DNA of 64,000 bases from Bacteroidota bacterium (GTDB lineage Bacteria; Chloroflexota; Anaerolineae; Aggregatilineales; Phototrophicaceae): positions 92,366 to 156,365 of the forward strand of contig JAPUDW010000327.1 in assembly GCA_027492915.1 (NCBI GenBank), written 5' to 3'. Below, piece by piece: positions 2,921 through 32,201 of this stretch (position 1 is the first letter of the stretch; each line of letters begins with the position of its first letter). Position numbers and translations under genes: made by a program. The notes beneath the pieces are model-generated. The model did no database searches and was not told the DNA's origin. It worked only from the letters and a program-made list of their open reading frames with translations.

Positions 2921-4201
2921 TTATGCTCCTGACAAATCGGCTGTTTCCAAAATGGCGGTAGACACCTGTGCTTGCAATGGCGCAGGTTTCATAATCGCCA
3001 TAATACCTGTGGCAACTAGCGACCCACACACAATTATCACTAAAAGCACCTGATACGTCCCAAAACGGTCAAAAATGAAACTGGCTCCAACGGGTGCAAT
3101 AGTGGTTGTGACCGTCAAAAATATCGCCATCACGCTGCTAATTCGAGCATAATGCGTTGAGCCGTAGAACTCAGCCAGCATGGAGGGACGCGCTAATGTC
3201 TTTGCACCGTATGATGCCCCAAAGATCAGGATAAAAATACCGATATTGAGCGAAGATGAACCCAGCAACAAAACCAATATCGAAAGCGCTTCTAAGGCAA
3301 AGAGACTCATGGTTATCGTCCGGCTGGATATGCGGGTATCCAGCGGCGCAAAAATCACCCGTCCAGCCACTTGTAGGATACCAATTGAGCCTGCTGCTAG
3401 AGCTGCTGCGCTAGGGTCAAAACCCGCCGCAATCAAAAATGGAATGAGGTGAAAACGTATAGCGGCAGCCGTCAGGTTAGACAAACTAAAAGCAGCCGTG
3501 AGCATCCAAAACGATTTGCTATGGAGCGCGTTGCGGAGACTAACACCTATTGACGGACGCGCGACATAGGCGGCATGTTTCGTTTCCCCATCGGGCAGCA
3601 GTCCTAAGTCATCGGGACGACGGCGTAAGACAATCAAATGCAGGGGGATTGTAGTGATCGCCAGTAAAATACTCAGGATGACCAGCGCGTTTCGCCATCC
3701 AAAATGATGCAGTAAAGCGTCCGATAGCGGCACAAAAATCGTGCTGGCGAGTCCAGCGACAAAGGTAATCAGCGCTAACGCTCTGCCCCGACGCTTCACG
3801 AACCACACCGCAACCACCGCAAAGGCTGGCTCATATAACACGGCAGCCGAGCAAATACCTAGTCCAACCCAAATCAGATAGAGGGTGTTAAGATCATTGA
3901 CCAGCGACCACGCGAATACCAGCAGACTGGCAGCAATAGAACCGACTGTCATCAGCAATCGCGCCCCGTTGCGGTCAATCCACATACCAACCGGAAAAGC
4001 CATGCCACCCGCAACCAGCAGTGATAAGGAAAATGCCCCGGTCAATTCTGTTCGTGACCAGCCCAATTCATTGACCATCGGTGTGAGAAAGACCGAGAAG
4101 GCATAGTAAATAATGCCCCAAGAAATGGTCTCGGTGATGGCTAGCGTCAGGGTAATATACCAGCCGTAATAGCGTGGCTTGCTGATAGCATCTTGCGCCA
4201 T
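2921..4201 (-). CDS. MFS transporter of the arsenic cluster
   Basis: A 426-residue polytopic membrane protein with about 12 hydrophobic segments and the major facilitator superfamily layout: two six-helix halves, an early charged loop after TM2 (GMWIDRNGAR, the motif-A position) and a central basic loop (VLRRRPDDLG). It is the third gene of a minus-strand set after an ArsR repressor and a flavin oxidoreductase, which points to export of an arsenic species or of the oxidoreductase product. That is inference; the substrate cannot be read from the sequence. A GAPDH gene, the usual partner of the arseno-phosphoglycerate exporter ArsJ, is absent nearby, so I do not call it ArsJ. Eighty-four bases containing a hairpin separate it from the upstream gene. 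Confidence 0.8.
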   Translation of the reverse strand: MAQDAISKPRYYGWYITLTLAITETISWGIIYYAFSVFLTPMVNELGWSRTELTGAFSLSLLVAGGMAFPVGMWIDRNGARLLMTVGSIAASLLVFAWSLVNDLNTLYLIWVGLGICSAAVLYEPAFAVVAVWFVKRRGRALALITFVAGLASTIFVPLSDALLHHFGWRNALVILSILLAITTIPLHLIVLRRRPDDLGLLPDGETKHAAYVARPSIGVSLRNALHSKSFWMLTAAFSLSNLTAAAIRFHLIPFLIAAGFDPSAAALAAGSIGILQVAGRVIFAPLDTRISSRTITMSLFALEALSILVLLLGSSSLNIGIFILIFGASYGAKTLARPSMLAEFYGSTHYARISSVMAIFLTVTTTIAPVGASFIFDRFGTYQVLLVIIVCGSLVATGIMAIMKPAPLQAQVSTAILETADLSGA

Positions 4202-4228
4202 GAAAAACCGCCTCTAGATCACAAATCA

Positions 4229-4261
4229 AAGAGGCTTTGGCAGGGGTTGCCGCAGCCTCTT
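4229..4261 (-). terminator. Hairpin between the flavin oxidoreductase and MFS genes
   Basis: On the minus strand AAGAGGCT pairs with AGCCTCTT, with a second inner stem GGCA/TGCC around an ACCCC loop. The sequence after it is only moderately T-rich, so it may be a partial terminator or mRNA stabiliser that lowers expression of the downstream MFS gene, not a full stop. Confidence 0.4.
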
Positions 4262-4285
4262 CAAGCCCTATTAGTGAATTTCTGT

Positions 4286-5752
4286 TTAGTTACAGCAGGC
4301 CGTATCGCAGCCGCAGGTTGTCGACTTGACCCCATCGCTGCAACAGCTATCCTCACATCCACAGTCACGGGCTGCGACTTGGAGCGCGATGGGTTGCAGG
4401 ACATTGGAAAGAACAGGGATGTTAGTTAGATTTATAAGACTTGCCCCCAGCGGTACAGCTTGGTTCACGCCCGTTCCGCAGCAGCTCCCACCATCACCCG
4501 AATCACTGCTACATACACCCGTTTCAGGCAGATTAAGCTGAACATCCCGCGCGGCTTCCCAATCGCCCACCAACGCCGCCACTACTGAACGGACTTGCTC
4601 ATATCCGGTTGCTAGCAAAAAGGTTGGGGCACGACCATAACTTTTCATACCTACAATATAGAAGTCTTTTTCCGGCTGGCGCAGTTCAGCTTCCCCATGT
4701 GGGCGAACCGTCCCACAGCTATGGATATTCGGGTCAATCATCGGCCCAAGTGCGCGGGTACTTTCCAACGACGGGTCAAGGTCAAGCCGCATTTCGCGCA
4801 GCATCGCTAGATCAGGTCGTGAACCCGTTGCCGTGATAATCTCATCCACATAAACGGTTTCTTGCCCGTTGGGGGTTTCACCAATGACCGCAATACCCTG
4901 ATCGGTTGTCCTTAGTTCTCGTACACGGAACGGAGAAACAATCTGGATGTCCTGAGCATCCACATAACCTTTAATACGTGTGCCGAGTTGACCACGCGCT
5001 GGCAGCGCATCGTCAGCTTCACCGCCATACACCTGCTTCAGATTTTTACCACGCATTGCCCAATAAATGCGGGTGTCGGGCGCATCTTCTTTCAACCGCG
5101 CCAGCTCAAGTAAGGCATTGATCGCCGAGTGACCGCTGCCCACCACCAGCACCCGTTTATTCGCATAGCGTTCGCGGTAGGTGTCCAACACATCAGGAAT
5201 GCCATAAAAAATGTGGTCAGCCTGTCGCTTTTCGCCTATTGCTGGCAGTCCACCCGAACCCAATGGATTGGGTGTATCCCATGTGCCGGAAGCATCAATC
5301 ACCGCTCGCGCTTGGATGAAATCTTCTCTGCCATCGCCGTAGACCACATGCAAAACGAATGGCGCGGTTTCACGTCCTGTATCTTTCATCTTGTCAATAT
5401 TTTCACGGCTGATAGCCACAACCTTTGCACTCAGTTGAATATGCCCTCGAACACTTTCGATTTCAGCAAAGGGCAGCATGTAGCGCTCAATGAGGTCACG
5501 TCCGGTTGGAAGGTCTTTGAGAGGTGGCATTTGCCAACCTTGTGCTTCTAACAACCGTACCGCAGCCTGATCAACCGTAAACTCCCACGGTGAAAACAGG
5601 CGGACATGCTGCCAATTGCGGATATTTGCTCCAACACTTTCACCCGCTTCAAAAACGATAGGGTTTTCCCCACGTTCGATGAGATGGGCAGCCGCCGCTA
5701 GACCCACCGGGCCAGCACCAATGATGGCAATCGGGAGCGTTTGCTCGGTCAT
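4286..5752 (-). CDS. FAD/NAD(P)-dependent monooxygenase-like protein (ArsO-like) with cysteine-rich tail
   Basis: A flavoprotein of 488 residues. It has an N-terminal FAD-binding GAGPVG motif (residues 12-17), a second nucleotide-binding VVGSGHSAINAL segment near the middle and an ATGSRPDL motif, as in flavin-containing monooxygenases of the ArsO type found in arsenic operons. The last 77 residues add a tail with 11 cysteines, including CC, CGC and CC pairs, ending CDTACCN. This is not part of the usual fold and could bind As(III) or another soft metal. I start it at ATG 5752, after GGAAGG at good spacing; an in-frame ATG at 5791 lies before the operator. The operator at 5768-5785 just upstream indicates ArsR control. 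The substrate is unknown. Confidence 0.8.
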   Translation of the reverse strand: MTEQTLPIAIIGAGPVGLAAAAHLIERGENPIVFEAGESVGANIRNWQHVRLFSPWEFTVDQAAVRLLEAQGWQMPPLKDLPTGRDLIERYMLPFAEIESVRGHIQLSAKVVAISRENIDKMKDTGRETAPFVLHVVYGDGREDFIQARAVIDASGTWDTPNPLGSGGLPAIGEKRQADHIFYGIPDVLDTYRERYANKRVLVVGSGHSAINALLELARLKEDAPDTRIYWAMRGKNLKQVYGGEADDALPARGQLGTRIKGYVDAQDIQIVSPFRVRELRTTDQGIAVIGETPNGQETVYVDEIITATGSRPDLAMLREMRLDLDPSLESTRALGPMIDPNIHSCGTVRPHGEAELRQPEKDFYIVGMKSYGRAPTFLLATGYEQVRSVVAALVGDWEAARDVQLNLPETGVCSSDSGDGGSCCGTGVNQAVPLGASLINLTNIPVLSNVLQPIALQVAARDCGCEDSCCSDGVKSTTCGCDTACCN

Positions 5753-9978: not shown

Positions 9979-10006
9979 ATATCATTACATGCTGATGTAA
10001 TGATAT
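9979..10006. promoter_or_regulatory. Operator of the first CmtR-like repressor
   Basis: ATATCATTACAT and ATGTAATGATAT form a perfect 12-bp inverted repeat around GCTG, 11 bp before ATG 10018. It is the expected binding site for the repressor encoded just downstream and lies between two divergent genes, so it may control both. Confidence 0.72.
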
Positions 10007-10017
10007 GTCGAGGTTTT

Positions 10018-10356
10018 ATGATCCTTCAAGCCCAAGTTAGTGCAGTAGAACTACAAGCAAAACTCTTCCGGGGATTTGGTGATCTTTCTCGCCTAACCAT
10101 TTTAGATACGCTCCGTAAGCGCCCAATGACAGTGACACAAATCGTTGAGGCAACGGGCCTCACCCAATCCAATACCTCTAATCACTTAAGCTGCTTAAAG
10201 GACTGCGGCTTAGTGGTTTCTCACCAAGATGGGCGCAAAGCAATCTATGAACTCAGTGATCCGCGTGTTGGACAACTATTAGATATAGCCGATGAATTAT
10301 TAGCAGACGTAGCAAAAGGTGTCTATGCCTGTACCCACTATGGAGAAGAGGAATAA
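10018..10356 (+). CDS. CmtR-like ArsR-family metal sensor, copy 1
   Basis: A 112-residue repressor. The recognition helix carries SNHLSCLKDCGLV, with two cysteines four residues apart, and a third cysteine near the C-terminus (VYACTHY). This three-cysteine pattern is that of the Cd(II)/Pb(II) sensor CmtR, so soft divalent ions are the likely inducer. ATG 10018 follows GAGG; the earlier in-frame ATG at 10000 lies inside the operator. The start also aligns residue for residue with the second CmtR-like protein at 22882. The P1B ATPase begins 5 bp after its stop, so the pair forms a sensor-exporter unit. Confidence 0.87.
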   Translation: MILQAQVSAVELQAKLFRGFGDLSRLTILDTLRKRPMTVTQIVEATGLTQSNTSNHLSCLKDCGLVVSHQDGRKAIYELSDPRVGQLLDIADELLADVAKGVYACTHYGEEE

Positions 10357-10361
10357 TATAA

Positions 10362-12515
10362 ATGGCACAATTGCTAACGGTACAATTGCCAGTGCAAGGT
10401 ATGGAATGTGCCCATTGTACGCAAACAGTCCAAAATGCAATCGCCCAAGTACCCGGTGTCCATTCGGTTCAAGTCTTGTTATCGAGCGAACGGGCAACTA
10501 TTACCCTTGATCCTGCTCAAACCGATATGCCTGCCATTCGCAAGGCTGTGGCCGATGCAGGCTATACCATCCCCGTTGAAACGACGAAAGAGGCACTTCC
10601 AGAAGCTAATTCCTTTACCAAACGTGTGCTTACCTTGTTTGGCATCGTGTTTGCCATTGTCTTATTCGTGGTTGTGTTTGGAGAATGGCTTGGTCTTTTT
10701 GATACCCTCACGGATCACGTACCATTTCCCATTGGTGTAGTCATTGTCATTCTGGCTGGGTTTCCCATTTTTCGGAATGTAATCCAAGCAGCACTGCGGC
10801 GGCAAATTATCTCTCATACGCTGATGACCTTGGGCGTGTTAGCGGCCCTAGCTATTGGGCAATGGGCAACCGCTGCCGTGATTGTCCTCTTTATGCGTGT
10901 CGGCGAGTATGCCGAACACTTCACGACAGAAAAAGCACGACAAGCGGTTAAAGGGCTGACCAATCTTGCTCCGCAAACTGCTCGTGTTGAACGCGAGGGA
11001 GAAAGTGTTGACCTGCCAATTGAAAAGGTCGTCATTGGAGATGTGGTAGTCGTGCGTCCCGGTGAAGTTATTCCGGTTGATGGTAAGGTAGTGAGTGGTC
11101 ACGCGACCATCAATCAAGCCACAATTACCGGTGAAGCAATACCTGTAGAGGCAGGAATTGGTGCAACTGTCTTTGCTGCAACTATTGCAACTCTTGGGAG
11201 CCTGCGCGTACAAACAACCCGCATCGGTAAAGACACCACCTTTGGCCGCGTGATTACGATGGTTGAAGAAGCCGAAGCCCATCGCGCGGATGTGCAACGC
11301 ATTGCGGATAAGGCATCTGCATACTATTTGCCAGTAGTCGCCGGTATTGCCCTCTTAACCTTCCTCATTCGCCGTGATCCACTCGCAACAGCAGCGGTCC
11401 TGGTCGTAGCCTGTTCTTGTTCCTTTGCCTTAGCAACACCGATTGCAATGTTGGCAACCATTGGTGCAGCTGCCAAACGCGGCTTACTGATTAAGGGCGG
11501 GAAGTACATTGAAATCTTGGCAAAAGCGGATGTGTTGTTACTAGACAAAACGGGGACCCTCACGCTCGGCAAACCACAGGTCACAGATGTGATTGCATTG
11601 ACCAGCTTGCCTGATACGGAGGTATTAGCCCTAGCTGCCTCTGCTGAACGCTATTCCGAGCATCCCCTCGCTGAAGCAGTCCGCCGTGCCGCAAAGGAGC
11701 GCAAGCTAACCATTGCCGAACCAGAGCGCTTTACTGCTCTTCCCGGTATAGGCATACAGGCACAAATTCAAGGTCAGATGATTGAAGTCGGAAGCCATCG
11801 CATTTTGGGGAGTGAGGCTATCCCACTTGCGGCACAGAAACTTGAAGGGCAAGGAAAAACCCTGCTCTATATCACCATTGCTGGTAAACCGGTGGGCGTG
11901 CTAGCCGCTTCAGATACCATGCGTGATGAGGTTCCTGCGGCCTTGAAAGCCGTCAAAGCACAGGGAATTAGTCACATTGAACTGTTGACCGGGGACAATG
12001 AGCGTAGCGCTTCAACACTAGCGACCCAGCTTGGCATTTCGTATCGAGCTAATCTGCTTCCGGAGCATAAAATTGCCATCGTCAAAGAGTATCAATCCCA
12101 AGGTCATACAGTAGTTATGATCGGCGATGGGGTGAATGATGCCCCTGCCCTCGCTCAAGCCAATATTGGGATCGCAATGGGCGTTGCTGGTACAGATATT
12201 GCCATTGAAGCTGCTCATGTGGCGCTGATGCGTGAAGATTGGTCACTCATTCCGGATGTGTTTGCGATAGCGAAACGCACGATGGGTGTTGTCCGGTTTA
12301 ATATCGGTTTTACCATCGTCTACAACATTATTGGGCTTATCTTGGCGGCTTTAGGTATTTTGCCCCCCATTCTGGCAGCAGCCGCCCAATCGCTTCCCGA
12401 TTTAGGCATTCTTGCAAACTCATCACGGTTGCTTCGGTATCGGGAGCAACAAGCTAAGACAAATACAGTAGCTGTAGTATCTCACGTCGATATAGATAAA
12501 ATAGCTGTCACATGA
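10362..12515 (+). CDS. P1B-type metal ATPase with Cys-Ser-Cys transport motif
   Basis: A 717-residue metal-exporting ATPase. Residues 8-70 are one HMA domain with Cys16-X2-Cys19. Motifs are the phosphorylated Asp395 (DKTGTLT), SEHPLAEA, and [10 protein letters not shown]. The actuator loop reads TGEA in place of the usual TGES. The transmembrane metal motif is CSC (residues 351-353, ACSCSFALATP) in place of CPC, losing the helix-breaking proline. The last helix has QSLPDLGILANSS, with an Asp where Zn/Cd ATPases have one. I recall CSC being described for a small P1B subgroup, but its substrate is not established to my knowledge. CmtR-type control favours Cd, Pb or a similar ion. Confidence 0.88.
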   Translation: MAQLLTVQLPVQGMECAHCTQTVQNAIAQVPGVHSVQVLLSSERATITLDPAQTDMPAIRKAVADAGYTIPVETTKEALPEANSFTKRVLTLFGIVFAIVLFVVVFGEWLGLFDTLTDHVPFPIGVVIVILAGFPIFRNVIQAALRRQIISHTLMTLGVLAALAIGQWATAAVIVLFMRVGEYAEHFTTEKARQAVKGLTNLAPQTARVEREGESVDLPIEKVVIGDVVVVRPGEVIPVDGKVVSGHATINQATITGEAIPVEAGIGATVFAATIATLGSLRVQTTRIGKDTTFGRVITMVEEAEAHRADVQRIADKASAYYLPVVAGIALLTFLIRRDPLATAAVLVVACSCSFALATPIAMLATIGAAAKRGLLIKGGKYIEILAKADVLLLDKTGTLTLGKPQVTDVIALTSLPDTEVLALAASAERYSEHPLAEAVRRAAKERKLTIAEPERFTALPGIGIQAQIQGQMIEVGSHRILGSEAIPLAAQKLEGQGKTLLYITIAGKPVGVLAASDTMRDEVPAALKAVKAQGISHIELLTGDNERSASTLATQLGISYRANLLPEHKIAIVKEYQSQGHTVVMIGDGVNDAPALAQANIGIAMGVAGTDIAIEAAHVALMREDWSLIPDVFAIAKRTMGVVRFNIGFTIVYNIIGLILAALGILPPILAAAAQSLPDLGILANSSRLLRYREQQAKTNTVAVVSHVDIDKIAVT

Positions 12516-12593: not shown

Positions 12594-13370
12594 ATGACAG
12601 ATAGCACGACATCTTTGACTGCCAATGCCCAACCTATACGTTCATCAAAACGGATGAGAACGTTTGTCCATGCCCTTTTATTTGTGTTGGGGTTCTCCCT
12701 CACATTTATTGTGGGTTGGGGAGGTGCATTTACCTTCATCGGACAGATGTTTACCCACTATAAGTTACTGCTTGGTCAGATCGGTGGGATTGTGATTATT
12801 GTGTTTGGCCTATTTAATCTCGGTATCGTCAAAATCGCTCCGTTGAATTATGACACTCGACCACAGCTAGATATTGCCAGTCATACCGGATTTGTACCTT
12901 CTATTCTGATGGGAGTCTTTTTTGCGGCTGGTTGGACACCCTGTATTGGAACGACGCTCGGTGCAATTTTGACATTGGGTTTTAGCCAAGAGACAGTAGG
13001 CCAAGCAATAGTCTTATCCAGCGGGTATTCGCTTGGCTTAGGAATACCGTTTCTCATTATTGGTTTGGGAATAGATCGGGCAACACATCTTGTGGGGCGG
13101 TTTCGACGACATATCCGTACACTTCAGATTGCTAGCGGTTTGCTGCTTATCATGATTGGTATTTTGCTCCTCACAAAACAAATGACAGTGATTGCCATTT
13201 GGGCGCAAAGTTACGGTCTCTATATTGATTTGCCAATGGGAGGAGGCACTACTCCCTCCTATCTCATTGCTATCCTTGGTGGCTTATTATCATTTCTTTC
13301 TCCCTGTGTGCTCCCACTTGTCCCGGCATACGTCGGGTATTTGAGCGGGCAAGCTGTGAGAGAACTATGA
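12594..13370 (+). CDS. CcdA-type thiol-electron transporter, circularly permuted, copy 1
   Basis: A 258-residue, six-helix membrane protein. Every CcdA block is present but the order is shifted. It begins with the normal second helix (FVHALLFVLGF, 24-34), then IGGIVIIVFGLFNLG, the fourth-helix AAGWTPCIG (Cys117), SLGLGIPFLIIG and SGLLLIMIGILLLT. It ends with the normal first helix, GLLSFLSPCVLPLVPAYVGY (Cys238). CcdA passes reducing equivalents from cytoplasmic thioredoxin to outside thioredoxins. With six helices a permutation keeps topology possible, and the basic N-terminus (SSKRMR) suits a cytoplasmic end. The start is ATG 12594 after GGAG. The gene lies between the ATPase and a small gene plus TlpA. 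A gap-free paralogue is at 26918. Confidence 0.85.
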   Translation: MTDSTTSLTANAQPIRSSKRMRTFVHALLFVLGFSLTFIVGWGGAFTFIGQMFTHYKLLLGQIGGIVIIVFGLFNLGIVKIAPLNYDTRPQLDIASHTGFVPSILMGVFFAAGWTPCIGTTLGAILTLGFSQETVGQAIVLSSGYSLGLGIPFLIIGLGIDRATHLVGRFRRHIRTLQIASGLLLIMIGILLLTKQMTVIAIWAQSYGLYIDLPMGGGTTPSYLIAILGGLLSFLSPCVLPLVPAYVGYLSGQAVREL

Positions 13371-13486
13371 CACCAAATTCTAGGCAAAAAAATATTCGCC
13401 GAATGAATAACCTGTTCTTTGCAAAATCCGAGGAAGGCTATTATGAAGAAATTGGGGTTAAAGAAGTGATGCAGTCAACTGTATGA
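13367..13486 (+). CDS. Small 39-codon gene coupled to ccdA and tlpA
   Basis: The ATG at 13367 overlaps the ccdA stop (ATGA), and its TGA at 13484-13486 overlaps the tlpA ATG at 13483 (again ATGA). The product begins MTPNSRQKNIRRMNN and ends EIGVKEVMQSTV: a basic N-terminal third, then an acidic middle. It has no membrane helix, no cysteine, and no domain I recognise. Four-base overlaps at both ends are hard to explain by chance and suggest either a real small protein or a coupling leader that feeds ribosomes into tlpA. The second ccdA and tlpA copies are not joined by such a gene. Confidence 0.5.
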   Translation: MTPNSRQKNIRRMNNLFFAKSEEGYYEEIGVKEVMQSTV

Positions 13487-14046
13487 ACGATCTTCAAGAA
13501 GCCCCAACCCTTGCTGAGCGGCGGCTTTCTACAGTCGGTTCTGTTATTCTCCTCACTGGTATTATTGTTGCAATCATTGTATTTGGTCTCGCTCTCGCTC
13601 GGCGCAATGAAACTCAACCAAAAGCTGGCCCTGCGCCTGATTTCACGCTCACAACATTTACTGGAGAACAACTTCGCCTCTCTGAACAGCAAGGAAAAGT
13701 TGTGGTGATTAACTTTTGGGCAAGCTGGTGCATTCCCTGCCGCACTGAGGCTCCTGCTTTACAAGCAACATGGGAGCGCTACAAAGACAAAGGCGTACTA
13801 TTCGTTGGCGTGGATTATACGGATACCGACGACAATGCACGGGCATTCATCAAAGAATTTGGGATTACCTACCCCAACGGGCCAGATATAGGAATTAAGA
13901 TTTTTACGGCGTATCGCGTGCAGGGTGTCCCAGAAACCTTTATCATAGATCAACAGGGTAATGTGACTCAATTTTTATTTGCTGGAGTGAACGAGAAACA
14001 ACTCAGCAGCGCGATAGATCCGTTACTCGTTCAAAGAGATGAATGA
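13483..14046 (+). CDS. Membrane-anchored TlpA/ResA-like thioredoxin, copy 1
   Basis: A 187-residue protein with a short cytoplasmic N-terminus, one signal-anchor helix (about 17-39) and an outside thioredoxin-like domain of the AhpC-TSA/TlpA type. The redox site is WCIPC (Cys83/Cys86) and the cis-proline loop is GVPETFII. Such proteins receive electrons from CcdA and reduce disulfides in apocytochromes or copper-site proteins. It follows the permuted CcdA, its expected partner. A close paralogue with the same length of anchor and the same sequence around the start codon is at 31635, so the two arose by duplication. Confidence 0.88.
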   Translation: MNDLQEAPTLAERRLSTVGSVILLTGIIVAIIVFGLALARRNETQPKAGPAPDFTLTTFTGEQLRLSEQQGKVVVINFWASWCIPCRTEAPALQATWERYKDKGVLFVGVDYTDTDDNARAFIKEFGITYPNGPDIGIKIFTAYRVQGVPETFIIDQQGNVTQFLFAGVNEKQLSSAIDPLLVQRDE

Positions 14047-24440: not shown

Positions 24441-24485
24441 GGTAGGATTTGTAATTTGCTTGGATCTTTATGAGTGGGTAAGTAC

Positions 24486-25160
24486 ATGCGCGATTTTGTT
24501 ACGTACATTTCTAACCTACATCTCACACAAGTTGGGATTTGTGTATCTTTGTGTGTAGCTGGTCTGGTTCTCACCAACTGCACAACATCGTCGCAAGCCG
24601 CTTATTCATCAACATTTTATGAGGGTACTCAACTAGATGGCCTGGCTCCTGATTTCAAGCTTACAGACCAAAATAACCAAGTCATCTCGCTACACGATTT
24701 GAAAGGGAGTATCGTCGTATTAACATTTTTGGATAGCCAATGCCAAGATGTATGTCCATTGACATCCGCTCAACTGATAAAGACCAATCAAGCTCTTGGG
24801 ACTACCGCTGACTCTGTTACTTTTCTCAGTGTGAATGTCAATGAAAAAGCCAACACTTCAGAAGATGTAAGGCTGGCAAGCCAGCAGTGGCATTTGGATG
24901 AGATTAAAACATGGCATTTCTTAACCGGAAGTTCCGCCCAGTTGAAACCGATTTGGAAATTTTACAATATTGAAGTAGAGACCTCATCGGAACCTAAAAG
25001 TGAATTACTCCATACGATGGGAGTCTATTTGATCGACAAAAATAGACAATTTAGCTGGTACATTTCGCCTCCCTTTGTTGGAGTGGATACCCCTGCGCCT
25101 TCCTTACCTCTAAATGAATTACTCGTGAAGCATATACAAGAACTTTTACTCAGCAAATAA
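24486..25160 (+). CDS. SCO1/SenC-type copper chaperone, lipoprotein or membrane-anchored
   Basis: A 224-residue exported thioredoxin-fold protein. The SCO copper site is complete: Cys86-X3-Cys90-Pro (CQDVCP) and His176 in LLHTMGVYLID. SCO proteins deliver copper to cytochrome oxidase CuA or keep its cysteines reduced. The N-terminal hydrophobic stretch ends at a cysteine (VLTNC, Cys32); Asn before the cysteine is unusual for a lipobox, so anchoring by an uncleaved helix is also possible. The start is uncertain: ATG 24486 is chosen over a GTG at 24474. It begins the envelope run controlled by BlaI. No cytochrome oxidase gene is in the window. Confidence 0.82.
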   Translation: MRDFVTYISNLHLTQVGICVSLCVAGLVLTNCTTSSQAAYSSTFYEGTQLDGLAPDFKLTDQNNQVISLHDLKGSIVVLTFLDSQCQDVCPLTSAQLIKTNQALGTTADSVTFLSVNVNEKANTSEDVRLASQQWHLDEIKTWHFLTGSSAQLKPIWKFYNIEVETSSEPKSELLHTMGVYLIDKNRQFSWYISPPFVGVDTPAPSLPLNELLVKHIQELLLSK

Positions 25161-25175
25161 TTCTTACATTACACA

Positions 25176-26138
25176 ATGACAAAAAAAACTTCATCCAACA
25201 AACAAGCAAAGAGCAAAAACCTGATCAATAGGAGCGTAGCGATTAGCGCGTTAGCGCTTTTTGTTGTTCTCTTCAGCCTCTGGTATTTCACCAATAGGCC
25301 ATCCACTGACAATACTCAAAATGTTCAATTTGCCCACTTGCACGGTATGGGGTTTTCCTCAAATGGTGGTCAACTCTTCGTGACAGCTCATGATGGTTTC
25401 AGGGTTTATGAAAAAGGCCGTTGGCTAATCCCAGATCTTCCCATCAACGATTATATGGGTTACAGCCCTACTAATAGCGGTTTTTATAGCAGCGGTCATC
25501 CTGGGCCAGCATCTAAACAAATTAATCCTCTAGGTTTAGTGAAAAGTACCGATGGTGGTCAGACACTCACTGCATTGGGATTTGTCGGTCAAAGTGACTT
25601 TCACTTAATGGGCGTTGGATACGAAACGCACGCCATATATGTTTTAAGTCCCGAGAGAAACGCAATCCTCAACGTCGGATTATCTTACAGCCTTGATGAT
25701 GGAAAGACTTGGCATCAAAGTCAAGCTGGTGGGGTGGTTGGCAACATACTTCAGATCGCGGTTCATCCAACGAAAGATAACATTGTTGCACTCGCAACTG
25801 ACGGTGGATTATTCCTATCCACTGATTATGGTCAAAAATTCAGCCAGATTAGCAACACTATCCCTGTAACGTCAGCTTCATTTGCTCCAACAGGAAATCA
25901 TCTATTTTTTGGCTACCAAAATGTATATGCTCACGACCTGATGACAGGAAAAACTGATGCCTTAAAAAGCCCCACAATCACTGGCAATGATGCAATCGCT
26001 TACATTGCGGTTAATCCAATATCCGGTGAGATTGCCATTGCCACTTTCAGTAAGGACATGTATCTGTCTAACGATCAGATTCAATCTTGGAAACAAATTG
26101 CGCAACAGGGGACTGGCAAAAACGAAGTATCTGGCTAG
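25176..26138 (+). CDS. F510_1955-type exported BNR-repeat propeller
   Basis: A 320-residue protein with an N-terminal anchor helix (about 20-40) and a propeller carrying Asp-box-like turns: STDGGQT, SLDDGKTW and STDYGQKF. The segments AHLHGMGFS, DYMGYS, FYSSGHPGP and NPLGLVKSTDGG match the family annotated as F510_1955 glycosylhydrolase, often found beside copper and thiol genes. Glycosidase activity has not been demonstrated for the family as far as I know. The conserved histidines (HLHG, SGHP, DFHLMG) could bind metal. It begins 15 bp after the SCO gene and ends 5 bp before the next start, so co-transcription is clear. Confidence 0.75.
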   Translation: MTKKTSSNKQAKSKNLINRSVAISALALFVVLFSLWYFTNRPSTDNTQNVQFAHLHGMGFSSNGGQLFVTAHDGFRVYEKGRWLIPDLPINDYMGYSPTNSGFYSSGHPGPASKQINPLGLVKSTDGGQTLTALGFVGQSDFHLMGVGYETHAIYVLSPERNAILNVGLSYSLDDGKTWHQSQAGGVVGNILQIAVHPTKDNIVALATDGGLFLSTDYGQKFSQISNTIPVTSASFAPTGNHLFFGYQNVYAHDLMTGKTDALKSPTITGNDAIAYIAVNPISGEIAIATFSKDMYLSNDQIQSWKQIAQQGTGKNEVSG

Positions 26139-26143
26139 TTAGA

Positions 26144-26869
26144 ATGAGAGCGCTTGAATTGAAACTTGAACCCAGAATCATAAAGCCACAGTACAAACAA
26201 AGTACTTTTCCTTTTATTGTAATCGGACTACTTGTGCTGGGTCTTGTTGCCAGTTTTGCCTTCATCTATTTTTCAAATCTCTTGCCCAGTTCAAATACTT
26301 CTGCGACACTTATATTCACCGCAGGAACAAGGTTGTCAATGACAGCAAATCATCTTGAACCCACCAATACGCTCGGTGTCAAAGCCCCTCTCGTTATTGA
26401 AGCCTTACCAACTTCAATCTCCTATCCGCTTCCAAGTCTAGCAATAGGTCAACCAGCTCCCAATTTCACGCTCAATAATTTAGAGGGTAAGAGGGTTTCC
26501 CTCTCGGATTATGCCGGACAGGTGGTGCTAATCAATTTCTGGGCAAGTTGGTGTCAGCCCTGCCGCGTTGAAACCCCTGAATTAGTAAAAGCATATGAAA
26601 CGTACCGAAAAAATGGCTTTGCGATTCTAGGTGTAAATTTAACTGATCAAGATCAAATGCCTGACATAACGGCATTTGTGGGGGAATTTCATGTGTCCTA
26701 TCCAATTTTGCTGGACTCTGAGGGAACTGTTTCAAACAAACTTTACTATTATCCCGGCATACCCATGAGTGTATTTGTAGATCGGAAGGGGAATATTGAT
26801 CAAGTACAAATCGGTGCAATGTCGAAACAGCAGATTGAAGATGGCGTAAATGCCTTATTAAAGAAATGA
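26144..26869 (+). CDS. TlpA/ResA-like membrane-anchored thioredoxin, copy 3 (longer linker)
   Basis: A 241-residue protein with an anchor helix (about 22-45), an outside linker of some 55 residues and a TlpA-type thioredoxin domain with WCQPC (Cys137/Cys140), NLTDQDQMPDI and GIPMSVFVD. ATG 26144 is 5 bp after the preceding stop. It differs from the two close TlpA paralogues (13483, 31635) in its redox-site dipeptide, QP against IP, and in the long linker, so it may serve another substrate. The permuted CcdA immediately downstream is its probable electron source. Confidence 0.85.
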   Translation: MRALELKLEPRIIKPQYKQSTFPFIVIGLLVLGLVASFAFIYFSNLLPSSNTSATLIFTAGTRLSMTANHLEPTNTLGVKAPLVIEALPTSISYPLPSLAIGQPAPNFTLNNLEGKRVSLSDYAGQVVLINFWASWCQPCRVETPELVKAYETYRKNGFAILGVNLTDQDQMPDITAFVGEFHVSYPILLDSEGTVSNKLYYYPGIPMSVFVDRKGNIDQVQIGAMSKQQIEDGVNALLKK

Positions 26870-26917
26870 ACAAATGAAGCCAAAAACCAACTCCTTAACC
26901 AGCAAAGAAACGTGACT

Positions 26918-27694
26918 ATGACCGATAGCGCTCCATTTTCGTCTGCAAATGCTCTTAATATGGGTTCATCAAAACGGATGAGAACTTTTGTCCACGCCAT
27001 TCTATTTGTGTTGGGATTCTCTATCACATTCGTTGTTGGCTGGGGAGGGGCATTCACGGTCGTCGGACAGATTTTTAGCGAATATAAATCACTGTTAGGG
27101 CAGATTGGTGGGATCGTCATTATTGTATTTGGTCTGTTTAATCTGGGTATCGTCAAAATTGAATCTTTAAATTATGACACGCGACCTCAGCGGAATGCTG
27201 GTCACCGCTCTGGAGTAGCGTCATCGCTTTTAATGGGAGTCTTTTTCGCCGCCGGGTGGACACCCTGTATTGGAACAACATTGGGCGCAATCTTGACTCT
27301 AGGTTTCAGCCAGCAGACGGCAGGGCAAGCGATGGTATTGTCCAGTGGATATTCACTCGGACTGGGAATCCCTTTTTTGATTATCGGTTTAGGAATAGAC
27401 CGTGCAACCCATTTAGTGGGCCGGTTCCGACGACATATTCGTAAACTTCAGATTGCCAGCGGTTTGCTCCTTATCCTGATTGGCGTATTACTCTTGACGA
27501 ACCAGATGTCGGTGATTTCCATTTGGGCGCAACGTTACGGCCTCTATATTGATTTGCCGCTAGGGGGAGCAAGCACCCCGAACTATCTCATCGCAATCAT
27601 TGCCGGATTATTGTCATTTCTTTCGCCCTGTGTTTTACCGCTTGTCCCGGCATATGTTGGGTATCTAAGCGGGCAAGCTGTTAGAGAAATGTGA
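26918..27694 (+). CDS. CcdA-type thiol-electron transporter, circularly permuted, copy 2
   Basis: A 258-residue membrane protein that aligns without gaps to the copy at 12594. It has the same shifted order: FVHAILFVLGF first, AAGWTPCIG (Cys117) third, and GLLSFLSPCVLPLVPAYVGY (Cys238) as the last helix. The number and spacing of residues are unchanged, and the two redox cysteines of CcdA are retained. The start ATG 26918 matches the start of copy 1; a GTG six bases upstream is possible. Its stop overlaps the start of the DUF2085 gene (GTGA). Substitutions between copies are mostly conservative, so both are probably functional. Confidence 0.85.
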   Translation: MTDSAPFSSANALNMGSSKRMRTFVHAILFVLGFSITFVVGWGGAFTVVGQIFSEYKSLLGQIGGIVIIVFGLFNLGIVKIESLNYDTRPQRNAGHRSGVASSLLMGVFFAAGWTPCIGTTLGAILTLGFSQQTAGQAMVLSSGYSLGLGIPFLIIGLGIDRATHLVGRFRRHIRKLQIASGLLLILIGVLLLTNQMSVISIWAQRYGLYIDLPLGGASTPNYLIAIIAGLLSFLSPCVLPLVPAYVGYLSGQAVREM

Positions 27695-28488
27695 TTGAGA
27701 AGTATATGGCAGATCAAGCAGTTATCGAACGAACGACCATTTCATCCCAACGCACAACGAAAGCGCTTCGTGCCATATTGTGGGGTCTCGATCATTGGAT
27801 TATTATCCTTTCAGTCGGAATGGGAGTGCTGGTCATTGCGCCGTTCCTCGCCCCACTTTTCATGCACGTAGGTTGGACGGTTCCAGCCCAATTCATTTAT
27901 GGCATTTACAGCACCTTGTGCCATCAAATGGCTCAGCGATCCTATTTCCTATTTGGTTCACAACCGATGTACAACATGGCTCAATTGCCCCTTCCGCTTA
28001 CGGGGAAAATGCTGTCCGACACCCTGTTACTACGCGGATTTATCGGCAACGACAACCTTGGTTGGAAGGTAGCATGGTCAGATCGTATGGTCTACATGTA
28101 TGGGGGAATATGGATTGTAGGCATGGTCTATGGATTGTTACGTCAGCGTCGTCGTATTCGCTCCTTGAACATCATTGTACTGGGTTTATTGCTTCTGCCC
28201 ATGCTTGTTGACGGACTAACCCACACGCTGAGTGACCTATCCGGTGGGTTAGCAAGTGGCTTCCGCTACAACAATTCTTGGCTTGCCGAACTGACGGCAA
28301 ATCGGCTACCGAGTTGGTTCTATGTGGGTGATGCTTTTGGCTCTTTTAACTCATGGATGCGTCTCATCAGTGGAATAACGTTCGCAGTTGGTATCGTCTG
28401 GTTTGCCTATCCTTACATTAACCAAGCTCTGACCGAGTCGGCAGAAAAACTGCGCTGGAAGCTCATGAATGCCACGAACGTCACTTAA
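27691..28488 (+). CDS. DUF2085 membrane protein
   Basis: A 265-residue polytopic protein. The diagnostic DUF2085 block is STLCHQMAQRSYFLFG (near residue 75), followed by the arginine-containing RMVYMYGGIW helix and LPMLVDGLTHTL. The conserved Cys-His-Gln and the later His suggest a metal or heme site in the membrane, but the function of the family is unknown. Four or five hydrophobic helices are visible. It begins with GTG 27691 overlapping the ccdA stop; an ATG at 27706 is an alternative start. Its coupling to CcdA and its place in a copper/thiol run suggest that it takes part in envelope metal or redox handling. Confidence 0.72.
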   Translation: MIEKYMADQAVIERTTISSQRTTKALRAILWGLDHWIIILSVGMGVLVIAPFLAPLFMHVGWTVPAQFIYGIYSTLCHQMAQRSYFLFGSQPMYNMAQLPLPLTGKMLSDTLLLRGFIGNDNLGWKVAWSDRMVYMYGGIWIVGMVYGLLRQRRRIRSLNIIVLGLLLLPMLVDGLTHTLSDLSGGLASGFRYNNSWLAELTANRLPSWFYVGDAFGSFNSWMRLISGITFAVGIVWFAYPYINQALTESAEKLRWKLMNATNVT

Positions 28489-29352: not shown

Positions 29353-30213
29353 ATGGCATCTGATCCCACTATCCAACAACCAATTGGCGATCAAGAAAAG
29401 TTAGTCCCTGAAATTATACCTGAGCAATTACCAAGTCCCTATGCAGAAGAGGGTGCGCTCATTGTTATTCCAAGAACAACTTTCAATTACGTGATTATTG
29501 GACTGGCTTGTCTGGCTGTTGGTATTCTGCTCGGCACAACAGTCTTTAATCCAATGCGCGGTAACGAACTTACCCTTCAGACGATTTCCCAAGCAGTCGC
29601 AGATGGAATCAGTAAGTCGCCAACCGTGCAAACGGCACAAAATCAGGCGGTGCCGCAAAATATTAACGTCAGTGCCGACGACGACCCTTTTTGGGGGCCT
29701 AAAGATGCACCTGTGACGATTGTTGAATTTTCCGATTTTCAATGTCCCTACTGTGGGCGCTTCCACAAGGACACCTATGAGCAGCTTCGCAAAAATTATG
29801 AGGGCAAAATTCGGTTTGTCTATCGTGATTTTCCAATACTGAGCTTACATCCTTATGCGGAAGTTTCCGCTCAAGCCGCAGATTGTGCCAACGAGCAAGG
29901 AAAATACTGGGAATATCATGATCTATTGTTGAGCAATCAAGACAAATATCTTCCAGCCGACTTAACTAATTTTGCTTCTCAACTCAATTTAGATGGGACA
30001 GCATTCACAACATGTATAAGTACTGGACGCTACAAGCAGGAAATCGCCAAAGATGTCCAAGACGGTGAAAGCTATGGCGTTACCGGAACACCCACATTCT
30101 TTATTAACGGTCAAGCACTCGTTGGGGCACAGCCCTACACCGTTTTTGCATCAGCGATTGACGCGGAATTGGCAAAGGCAAACACGTCTGAAACAATACT
30201 TGCACCCGGATAG
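29353..30213 (+). CDS. Membrane-anchored DsbA-like thiol oxidoreductase
   Basis: A 286-residue protein with a cytoplasmic N-terminal tail, one anchor helix (about 45-65) and an outside DsbA-like domain (Thioredoxin_4/DSBA family). The redox site is CPYC (Cys131/Cys134) in FSDFQCPYCGRF and the cis-proline loop is GVTGTPTFFING. Two further cysteines (AADCANE and TTCISTG) may form a structural disulfide. Such proteins act as oxidases or isomerases with a vitamin K epoxide reductase-like partner; no such partner gene is seen. Set with TlpA and CcdA proteins, it gives the module both an oxidising and a reducing arm. Confidence 0.86.
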   Translation: MASDPTIQQPIGDQEKLVPEIIPEQLPSPYAEEGALIVIPRTTFNYVIIGLACLAVGILLGTTVFNPMRGNELTLQTISQAVADGISKSPTVQTAQNQAVPQNINVSADDDPFWGPKDAPVTIVEFSDFQCPYCGRFHKDTYEQLRKNYEGKIRFVYRDFPILSLHPYAEVSAQAADCANEQGKYWEYHDLLLSNQDKYLPADLTNFASQLNLDGTAFTTCISTGRYKQEIAKDVQDGESYGVTGTPTFFINGQALVGAQPYTVFASAIDAELAKANTSETILAPG

Positions 30214-30270: not shown

Positions 30271-31341
30271 ATGAATTTTGTTGTTATTTTTCTGACCGGG
30301 CTAACCACAGGCGGGCTGACCTGCCTCGCTGTTCAAGGCGGCTTATTGGCAACTACCTTGGCGAAACAAGTAGCGGTAATCAGTTCAAAGGGCCAATCAC
30401 ATTCAGGTAATCAAAACAATCAGACATTGACGGGTATTCAAGTCGCGCAAAATCTTTGGCCTGTTGTTTACTTTATGACCGCCAAACTGCTCGCTTATAC
30501 GTTGTTTGGCTTCTTGTTAGGCGCGCTGGGGTCGGTTATTCAAATCACTCCTGTAATACGTGCTGCGATGCAAATGCTGGCGGGACTATTCATGTTGGTG
30601 ACAGCATTAAACATGCTCAATGCCCATCCAATTTTCCGTTATGCTGTAATTCAGCCACCAAAAGTCCTCACCCGTTTGGTTCGTAACCAGTCGAAAAGTC
30701 AAGAAGTCTTTGCACCGATTGTGCTGGGTCTGATGACCATTTTGATACCGTGCGGTACTACACAAGCGATGGAAGTATTAGCTATTACTTCAGGTAGTCC
30801 CTTCCTAGGTGCTTTAGTGATGTTTGTCTTTGTTCTCGGAACTTCACCGACCTTTTTGATACTGGGCTTCTTGGCAACACGTATGCGCGGCAAATACCAA
30901 CGCTTGTTCGGTGCCATAGCAGCATTGGCAATTTTGTTTGTCGGTCTGGTATCGCTGGACGGTGGTTTAAATCTGATTGGGTCTCCCCTCGCTCCGAGTC
31001 GCATGTTGGCATCTCTGGTGCAGCCGAGAGGATTGAACCTCGCAAATCAAGTTGTGAAAGCTACTGTTGTCAATGGTGTACAGGAAGTGAACATCAACGC
31101 TGAAAATAACGGCTACTTTCCCAATTACTTTGGCGCTCAAAAAGAACAGCCAATTCGTGTAAAAGTCTCAACTAACAATGTCTACGGATGTACGCGAGCT
31201 TTTGTTATTCCAAGTATGGGCATACAAGAAATTCTTCCAGAAACCGGAGAAAAGATAATTGATTTACCCGCTCAGTCATCTGGAACAATTTACTTCACCT
31301 GTGGAATGGGAATGTATAACGGAGCCATTATTATCCAATAA
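30271..31341 (+). CDS. DsbD_2/SafE-type transporter fused to a cupredoxin domain
   Basis: A 356-residue protein. The first 240 residues form about six helices of the UreH/SafE (DsbD_2) type, beginning FLTGLTTGGLTCLAVQGG and containing the IPCGTTQAMEVLA helix with a conserved Pro-Cys-Gly. The C-terminal 90 residues are a cupredoxin-like beta-domain with YGCTRAFVIPSMGI and a terminal FTCGMGMY loop, where Cys, Met and probably a second Cys would bind copper outside the membrane. This fusion suggests copper import or delivery coupled to the outside face. The downstream gene is a CopZ-type chaperone on the cytoplasmic side, which fits metal passing across the membrane. Confidence 0.8.
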   Translation: MNFVVIFLTGLTTGGLTCLAVQGGLLATTLAKQVAVISSKGQSHSGNQNNQTLTGIQVAQNLWPVVYFMTAKLLAYTLFGFLLGALGSVIQITPVIRAAMQMLAGLFMLVTALNMLNAHPIFRYAVIQPPKVLTRLVRNQSKSQEVFAPIVLGLMTILIPCGTTQAMEVLAITSGSPFLGALVMFVFVLGTSPTFLILGFLATRMRGKYQRLFGAIAALAILFVGLVSLDGGLNLIGSPLAPSRMLASLVQPRGLNLANQVVKATVVNGVQEVNINAENNGYFPNYFGAQKEQPIRVKVSTNNVYGCTRAFVIPSMGIQEILPETGEKIIDLPAQSSGTIYFTCGMGMYNGAIIIQ

Positions 31342-31634: not shown

Positions 31635-32201
31635 ATGAATGATTTTCTTGAAACACCAACCGCTTCAGAGCGCCGACTTTCTAATTTCGGCACAATCGTT
31701 CTCATCATTGGCATTGTGGTCGTTGTAGCCGTTTTTGGTCTCGCCTTAGCTCGACGCAATGAAACTCAACCCAAATCTGGCGCCGCCCCTGATTTCACCC
31801 TAACGACATTTAATGGAGAACAATTTCGTCTCTCCGACCAGCGAGGTAAAGTTGTTGTCATTAATTTCTGGGCGAGTTGGTGCATTCCCTGTCGCGATGA
31901 GGCTCCTGCTTTACAAGCAACTTGGGAACGCTACAAAGACAAAGATGTGTTATTCGTTGGCGTGGATTATGCGGATACCGACGATAACGCCCTTGCATTC
32001 ATCAAGGAATTCGGGATTACTTATCCGAATGGCCCAGATGTGGGGATAAAGATTTTCACTGCTTATCGAGTGCAGGGTGTTCCAGAAACGTTTGTTATAG
32101 ATCAACAGGGTAATGTTGCGCAGTTCTTATATGCAGGGGTCAACGAAAAACAACTTGGCAGCGCCATTGATTTACTACTGGTTCAGAAGAACGAGCCATG
32201 A
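31635..32201 (+). CDS. Membrane-anchored TlpA/ResA-like thioredoxin, copy 2
   Basis: A 188-residue close paralogue of the protein at 13483: same anchor, ALARRNETQPK linker, WCIPC site (Cys83/Cys86) and GVPETFVI loop, with only scattered substitutions. The bases before both start codons are also similar (GATG-AGTCAAC), showing recent duplication of DNA including the translation start region. Here the neighbour is CopZ, while copy 1 follows a permuted CcdA, so the ccdA and tlpA paralogues have been split in this run, 4 kb apart. Confidence 0.87.
   Translation: MNDFLETPTASERRLSNFGTIVLIIGIVVVVAVFGLALARRNETQPKSGAAPDFTLTTFNGEQFRLSDQRGKVVVINFWASWCIPCRDEAPALQATWERYKDKDVLFVGVDYADTDDNALAFIKEFGITYPNGPDVGIKIFTAYRVQGVPETFVIDQQGNVAQFLYAGVNEKQLGSAIDLLLVQKNEP

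Follow-up and report, generated by a model that had tools for sequence, protein, structure and literature searches.

The gene at positions 12594–13370 of the window (the whole stretch of 64,000 nucleotides that was analysed) encodes, with a probability that we estimate at about 0.85, a naturally circularly permuted CcdA, which most likely works like CcdA, its function being inferred. In this protein, TM1 of CcdA follows TM2–TM6 and closes the chain. The permuted CcdA is real, conserved, and functional-looking, and the permutation took place within the family, is common, and is probably recurrent. The features of the gene, hereafter called copy 1 or P0001, are listed below.

12594–13370, + strand: permuted CcdA copy 1 (P0001), from ATG to TGA, 258 aa, helix order TM2-3-4-5-6-1
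12651–13193, + strand: residues 20–200, equivalent to residues 36–206 (TM2–TM6) of 5vkv by phmmer
12942–12944, + strand: codon of Cys117 (WTPCIG), the redox cysteine of TM4, invariant in 41 of 41 alignment rows
13173–13256, + strand: linker from TM6 to TM1, residues 194–221, predicted to lie outside
13257–13361, + strand: C-terminal TM1 helix, residues 222–256, of which residues 224–256 match 5vkv residues 6–38
13305–13307, + strand: codon of Cys238 (SPCVLPLVP), the redox cysteine of TM1, invariant in 41 of 41 alignment rows

When copy 1 was compared with the PDB sequences with phmmer, residues 224–256 matched residues 6–38 of the T. thermophilus CcdA chain (5vkv; i-Evalue 2e-5) and residues 20–200 matched residues 36–206 of the same chain (2.4e-19). 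These two matches are in swapped order and together span residues 6–206 of the 232, so all six helices of copy 1 are homologous to CcdA. The standard TM1-to-TM6 order of known CcdA/DsbD_TM members is not met, and copy 1 was therefore filed as a permuted variant and not as a standard CcdA member. The Pfam profile DsbD_TM (PF02683) matched copy 1 and a second permuted gene, copy 2, above its cut-off of 27.1 bits (41.6 and 46.4 bits, respectively). Because the best stretch in copy 1 (residues 17–195 on profile positions 38–217) begins at profile position 38, the N-terminus of the protein lacks the start of the profile. A preliminary description of this DNA had proposed that TM2–TM6 precede TM1, and three lines of evidence bear this order out: the 5vkv alignment, the conservation of a colinear family, and sub-profiles that cover TM1, TM2-3, and TM4-6. 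Its assignment of Cys238 in SPCVLPLVP as the TM1 cysteine is confirmed, and this residue comes after Cys117 (WTPCIG) of TM4 in the chain. The N-terminus is complete, as had also been claimed: the TGA stop codon of the upstream ATPase gene, at 12513–12515, leaves 78 bp ahead of copy 1. A frameshift or a missing N-terminus upstream of the gene was ruled out with the ORF coordinates and a six-frame motif scan of the window, in which the SPCVLPLVP helix occurred at 13299 and 27623 only. Two cases had been named beforehand that would refute the permutation. An added seventh helix beside a normal first helix was sought in the 211 proteins having all three parts and was absent in 211 of 211, none of them having two TM1 matches. 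A sequencing error or frameshift is excluded, since colinearity is seen in 46 of the 55 related loci, one of them in a complete genome.

The 55 related loci were obtained by scanning species genomes with patterns derived from P0001 and, because the patterns come from P0001 itself, the set leans to close relatives. Colinearity with P0001 holds over the matched length (L004–L048, L053), and the remaining nine loci have the canonical order (L049–L052, L054–L058). Among the colinear loci, 42 are complete, three are truncated at the end of a contig (L041, L043, L048), and in one (L033) an in-frame TAA separates TM6 from TM1. The complete genome is that of Leptolinea sp. HRD-7 (L017, to which L018 is nearly identical), and the permuted order was also found in single-contig genomes, e.g., G010, G027, G213, G228, G236, and G251. 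In alignment A1, which contains 41 rows with 47–81% identity to P0001, both cysteines and the motifs WxPC and SPCVxPLVPAY are invariant; Cys117 and Cys238 are also invariant in 50 of 50 junction rows. In three sequence pairs, dN/dS was 0.08, 0.05, and 0.04 for TM1 and 0.09, 0.11, and 0.07 for the core, with several synonymous distances near saturation. The C-terminal TM1 is thus under purifying selection, like the core. Residues 1–19, ahead of TM2, gave values of 0.66, 1.01, and 0.19 in three pairs and are loosely constrained.

Most of the loci come from metagenome assemblies, and in L033 and L127 TM1 is split off, so an assembly artefact, or a decayed gene that reads in the permuted order by chance, had to be considered. 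The occurrence of the order in a complete genome and in single-contig genomes and the purifying selection on TM1 contradict this explanation, which we regard as scarcely credible; for the helix order itself, it is refuted. The separation of TM1 from TM2–TM6, by the in-frame TAA at 4983–5774 of L033 and by a frameshift at 3368–4381 (minus strand) of L127, is either a split gene or a sequence error, and TM1 may have turned into a separate subunit in these two cases.

In the class to which the window genome belongs, a search of 298 genomes with A1 gave matches in at least 238, many of them canonical. The sub-profiles for TM1, TM2-3, and TM4-6 indicated that long proteins (300–414 aa) of other families are also permuted. 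The 211 proteins with all three parts comprised 126 permuted, 84 canonical, and 1 partial. How widespread the permuted order is, which the preliminary description had left to a profile search, was determined with a profile of the TM6–TM1 junction, A2. When a match reaching at least model position 147 of 157 was taken as the criterion, 111 permuted proteins were counted in 103 of the 298 class genomes, under 16 family codes. A2 separated both orders cleanly, and the rows below the threshold were canonical or cut by contig ends: G078 (contig end at 137) was excluded from the census, and G030, at 140, is canonical (L191). Outside the class but within the phylum, at least four permuted proteins were found (G335, G380, G478, G489; L130–L133). 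Samples of 295, 188, 247, and 249 genomes from four other phyla contained CcdA matches and one permuted protein, L022 (LAKY01000076.1), on a contig binned as Clostridiales PH28_bin88. Over 10 kb, this contig shares 94–95% identity with contigs of Leptolinea/Levilinea, which makes mis-binning likely. Among 72,556 plasmid records, 199 matched, one of them with a query cover of at least 80%, and none of the 60 matches listed of these 199 passes query residue 210. Canonical and permuted CcdA coexist in genomes, including that of the window. In the family of the window genome, permuted CcdA was present in only 2 of the 14 sampled genomes, G000 (the window genome) and G252, and the two congeners of the window genome lack it. 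This patchy family distribution hints at horizontal transfer, possibly together with the metal-resistance region.

Both termini of permuted CcdA are predicted to face the cytoplasm on the basis of loop charges and the absence of TlpA fusions, without any topology experiment. The number of K+R per A1 row was 2.5 at the N-terminus, 3.4 in loop 3/4, and 4.3 in loop 5/6, and 1.2 in loop 2/3, 0.0 in loop 4/5, and 1.3 in the 6/1 linker. The wider set of 126 likewise had more positive charge on the N-terminal side than in the linker. In this set, the C-tail that follows TM1 is neutral (K+R 0.81, D+E 0.85), and because it is not positively charged, the C-in topology rests on the helix count and the other loops. 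The earlier proposal of an inside N-terminus is accordingly supported strongly by the TM3-4 and TM5-6 loops and only weakly by the short C-tail. Among distinct proteins, 13 of 73 canonical and 0 of 105 permuted ones were seen to carry a C-terminal TlpA fusion, although these counts are not independent, several being from one clade or from Bacillota. The canonical CcdA of the window genome is itself a CcdA-TlpA fusion of 541 residues (L001). The TlpA domain of canonical CcdA sits outside; with a cytoplasmic C-terminus, therefore, no such fusion would be expected in the permuted protein.

The structure of P0001 was predicted with AF2, and the model was of middling quality (pLDDT 71.6, pTM 0.68). 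In the model, the SPC motif interrupts the TM1 helix (residues 223–233 and 242–256), and TM1 is likewise broken (10–23 and 33–42) in the model of the canonical control L050 (pLDDT 74.3). For both models, 5vkv was the best solved match. The Foldseek search with the P0001 model gave an E value of 4.8e-3 and no match below 0.001. With VIA-align, residues 19–218 of the P0001 model were superposed on 5vkv 36–224 (Z 6.8, rmsd 5.0, 183 aligned), and residues 9–241 of the L050 control on 5vkv 1–212 (Z 8.4, rmsd 4.2, 201 aligned). A sequential aligner can align the permuted model only from TM2 onward (TM2–TM6). The Z values of both alignments are middling by the standard of helical proteins, and they do not fix where TM1 lies in the fold. 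The fold search also matched transporters and ABC exporters, which we attribute to unspecific similarity among helical proteins.

The surroundings of copy 1, together with copy 2 and its gene cluster, are as follows.

10000–10356, + strand: ArsR-type regulator-like ORF upstream of the ATPase gene, named from its sequence without a profile search
10362–12515, + strand: heavy-metal P-type ATPase, upstream of copy 1
13483–14046, + strand: membrane-anchored thioredoxin (CIPC) resembling TlpA/ResA, downstream of copy 1, with an inferred role as electron acceptor
24474–25160, + strand: SCO1/SenC-type protein of the copy 2 cluster
26087–26869, + strand: TlpA/ResA-like thioredoxin (CQPC), upstream of copy 2
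26912–27694, + strand: permuted CcdA copy 2, 260 aa, 81% identical to copy 1
27691–28488, + strand: DUF2085 membrane protein; its GTG start codon and the copy 2 stop codon overlap (GTGA)
29353–30213, + strand: DsbA-like thioredoxin of the copy 2 cluster
30271–31341, + strand: DsbD_2 membrane domain fused to a C-terminal cupredoxin-like domain
31635–32201, + strand: second TlpA/ResA-like protein, resembling that at 13483–14046

Copy 2 has the same helix order as copy 1. To examine gene context, we used 71 permuted and 47 canonical loci, after the removal of duplicates and of loci with less than 1.5 kb of flank. Of the 71 permuted loci, 39 have a separate TlpA-like gene in their vicinity, and by one query 29 such genes lie within 300 bp on the same strand.

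CcdA works by an elevator mechanism, and TlpA and Sco take part in copper-site assembly. CcdA and DsbD are described as relaying electrons of cytoplasmic thioredoxin to CcmG/ResA outside the cytoplasm (PMC4460558), and the CcdA proteins of streptococci are reported to reduce lipoproteins of the thioredoxin-like type in vitro (PMC7034828). Both redox cysteines are kept in permuted CcdA, and a CcdA-type role in electron transfer is therefore inferred for it. The proposed chain would start after helix 1 and end with helix 1, retaining the six helices and both redox cysteines. A linker outside the membrane would tie the old helix 6 to the old helix 1, leaving both ends in the cytoplasm, and the helices are inferred to close into the same ring as in canonical CcdA. 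Cytoplasmic thioredoxin would reduce the pair Cys117/Cys238, and the electrons would be handed to a TlpA/ResA-type thioredoxin outside, presumably the product of 13483–14046 or, for copy 2, that of 26087–26869. The transfer may serve the maturation of cytochrome c or of copper sites, the substrates being inferred as well.

We considered whether the permuted protein might instead be a transporter of metals or arsenicals that is no longer an electron carrier. Copy 1 comes after a heavy-metal ATPase, and copy 2 matches the ArsG model NF040495. The score of this match, however, is 39.2 bits and does not meet the cut-off of 200 bits; copy 1 did not match the same model at E 0.01. (Nor did copy 2 meet the cut-off of the DsbD model NF001419, with 17.4 bits against 330.) The invariance of both CcdA cysteines, CcdA as the best solved relative, and the frequent TlpA-like neighbors also oppose a transporter, which we consider improbable.

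To infer whether the permutation arose once or several times, unrooted trees were built from TM2–TM6 only. From 210 rows, two that were cut by contig ends and those with >72% identity were dropped, leaving 108; the removal of 12 divergent rows gave a set of 96, and the removal of 36 (the same 12 and 24 by thinning) gave a set of 72. The 108-row tree has seven order changes and does not unite the permuted proteins. The 96-row tree also has seven, and one permuted clade was rejected (delta lnL 110, p-AU 2.2e-8). In the 72-row tree, eight changes were counted (7–9 in bootstraps), of which supported branches force at least four; a single permuted clade was rejected (delta lnL 134, p-AU 6.7e-5), and a single order change occurred in 0% of 200 bootstrap trees. 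Judged from the sequences of these shared helices, the permuted order is non-monophyletic. The clearest mixed clade unites permuted L100, L183, L189, and L190 with canonical L108, L121, and L209 at a support of 100/100, and its permuted linker bears the motif of the canonical tail, e.g., NALLSGTPEWIAEF vs. NAFFIGITPEWLTQYL.

Because the trees do not unite the permuted proteins, repeated permutation is favored, and we lean, with some reserve, to the inference that TM1 is a movable module: the same TM1–TM2 cut would have arisen repeatedly and independently in Chloroflexota, each time flipping both termini. One event followed by recombination is kept open. According to this explanation, which we hold to be possible but doubtful, there was one ancient permutation, and the mixing in the trees reflects gene conversion over TM2–TM6 between canonical and permuted copies. 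The two kinds of gene do share genomes, e.g., that of the window. In addition, the 35 columns of TM1 favor the core topology with one permuted clade over the free core topology by 19 log units, which is not significant, since these columns reject neither (p-AU 0.157 and 0.843). However, TM2-3 (p-AU 0.023) and TM4-6 (p-AU 1.6e-4) each reject one permuted clade, so conversion tracts would need to cover the whole core several times, and the trees of TM1 itself lean against one clade at a borderline p-AU of 0.051. The linkers also bear on this point. By eye, the permuted linkers of clade X (L100, L183, L188–L190) resemble the canonical tails of the same clade, and the linker GFDLETQVLG of clade V (L088, L090, L091) resembles FSIDLEEQVVG of canonical L001; across all pairs, however, the correlation of linker–tail likeness with the core was not significant (Spearman 0.059, reached by 340 of 2000 shuffles). 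Some of the order switches could alternatively be reversals, if the permuted order goes far back in Chloroflexota and some of the canonical genes there arose anew from permuted ones. This is rather unlikely: although the counts of changes cannot separate gain from loss and the tree is unrooted, the matches from outside the phylum are canonical apart from the mis-binned contig, and the canonical order is for this reason the likely starting point. As to the route, the permuted genes are inferred to have originated, probably more than once, by an in-frame tandem duplication whose outer parts were then lost. This route, already suggested in the preliminary description, remains plausible but is not demonstrated, with no tandem CcdA pair among 217 loci and no seven-helix intermediate; only L033 and L127 have TM1 split off. 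A further split, suspected upstream of L158/L162, turned out to rest on a spurious partial match.

Circular permutation is well known in soluble proteins and scarcely documented in helical membrane proteins. No published permuted CcdA was found in the open-access literature, in agreement with the earlier statement that none was known to have been described (subscription papers were not covered), and two papers on the detection of circular permutation (PMC12667903, PMC11757225) do not mention membranes or CcdA. Permuted CcdA resembles CcdA (5vkv; PF02683) in its six helices, SPC (TM1), WTPC (TM4), homology over the whole length, and TlpA/ResA-type genes nearby. It differs in that TM1 is last instead of first, that both termini are predicted to be inside whereas those of CcdA are outside (as inferred from DsbD and the TlpA fusions), and that no C-terminal TlpA fusion was seen. 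The beta domain of DsbD and ScsB are homologous transmembrane electron carriers; in DsbD, two outside domains flank the eight helices (PMC4460558), and permuted CcdA has no such domains. The nearest precedent is VKOR/DsbB, thiol-redox membrane families related by circular permutation, for which the accessible text of PMC4555120 gives a model of duplication and deletion and describes itself as the first report of circular permutation in helical membrane proteins. A later paper, as far as its available sections go, states that none has been observed in such proteins, and discusses the SWEET and PnuC transporters as topological isomers relatable by permutation (PMC7162841). VKOR and DsbB are far diverged and their permutation is seen by structure, whereas permuted CcdA belongs to one alignable family, whose two orders occur together in one genome and switch within a phylum. 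Circularly permuted GTPases (YRG, cpRAS), on the evidence of a partial text (PMC2430557), are likewise permuted naturally inside a family, but they are soluble and have no membrane insertion to invert.

If our reading is true, a polytopic membrane protein has been circularly permuted in nature repeatedly, inside one alignable family. Since the two orders are alignable residue by residue, occur in the same genomes, and switch within a phylum, natural pairs make it possible to test questions that are mostly confined to engineered proteins and that bear on the order of insertion in folding, on a change of side of the termini without loss of function, and on the fixation of permutations. For CcdA, the connection between TM1 and TM2 would be dispensable, and TM6 could be joined to TM1. 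Profile annotation and sequential structure aligners hide the permutation: the gene is called DsbD_TM and its order goes unnoticed.

Several minor observations were also made. The permuted proteins of 300–414 aa (L093–L107, L178–L197) have an insert between TM3 and TM4, and such an insert is also present in canonical CcdA-TlpA fusions (L001, L198–L203). DUF2085-like genes lie near 34 of the 71 permuted and 19 of the 47 canonical CcdA loci, a proximity that suggests DUF2085 as a functional partner of CcdA. In the window, the TlpA/ResA genes at 13483–14046 and 31635–32201 are closely similar, the latter closing the copy 2 cluster, and the clusters of copies 1 and 2 look as if they were duplicates of each other. 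The P-type ATPase at 10362–12515 carries VVACSCSFALATP at the position where copper ATPases usually have CPC.
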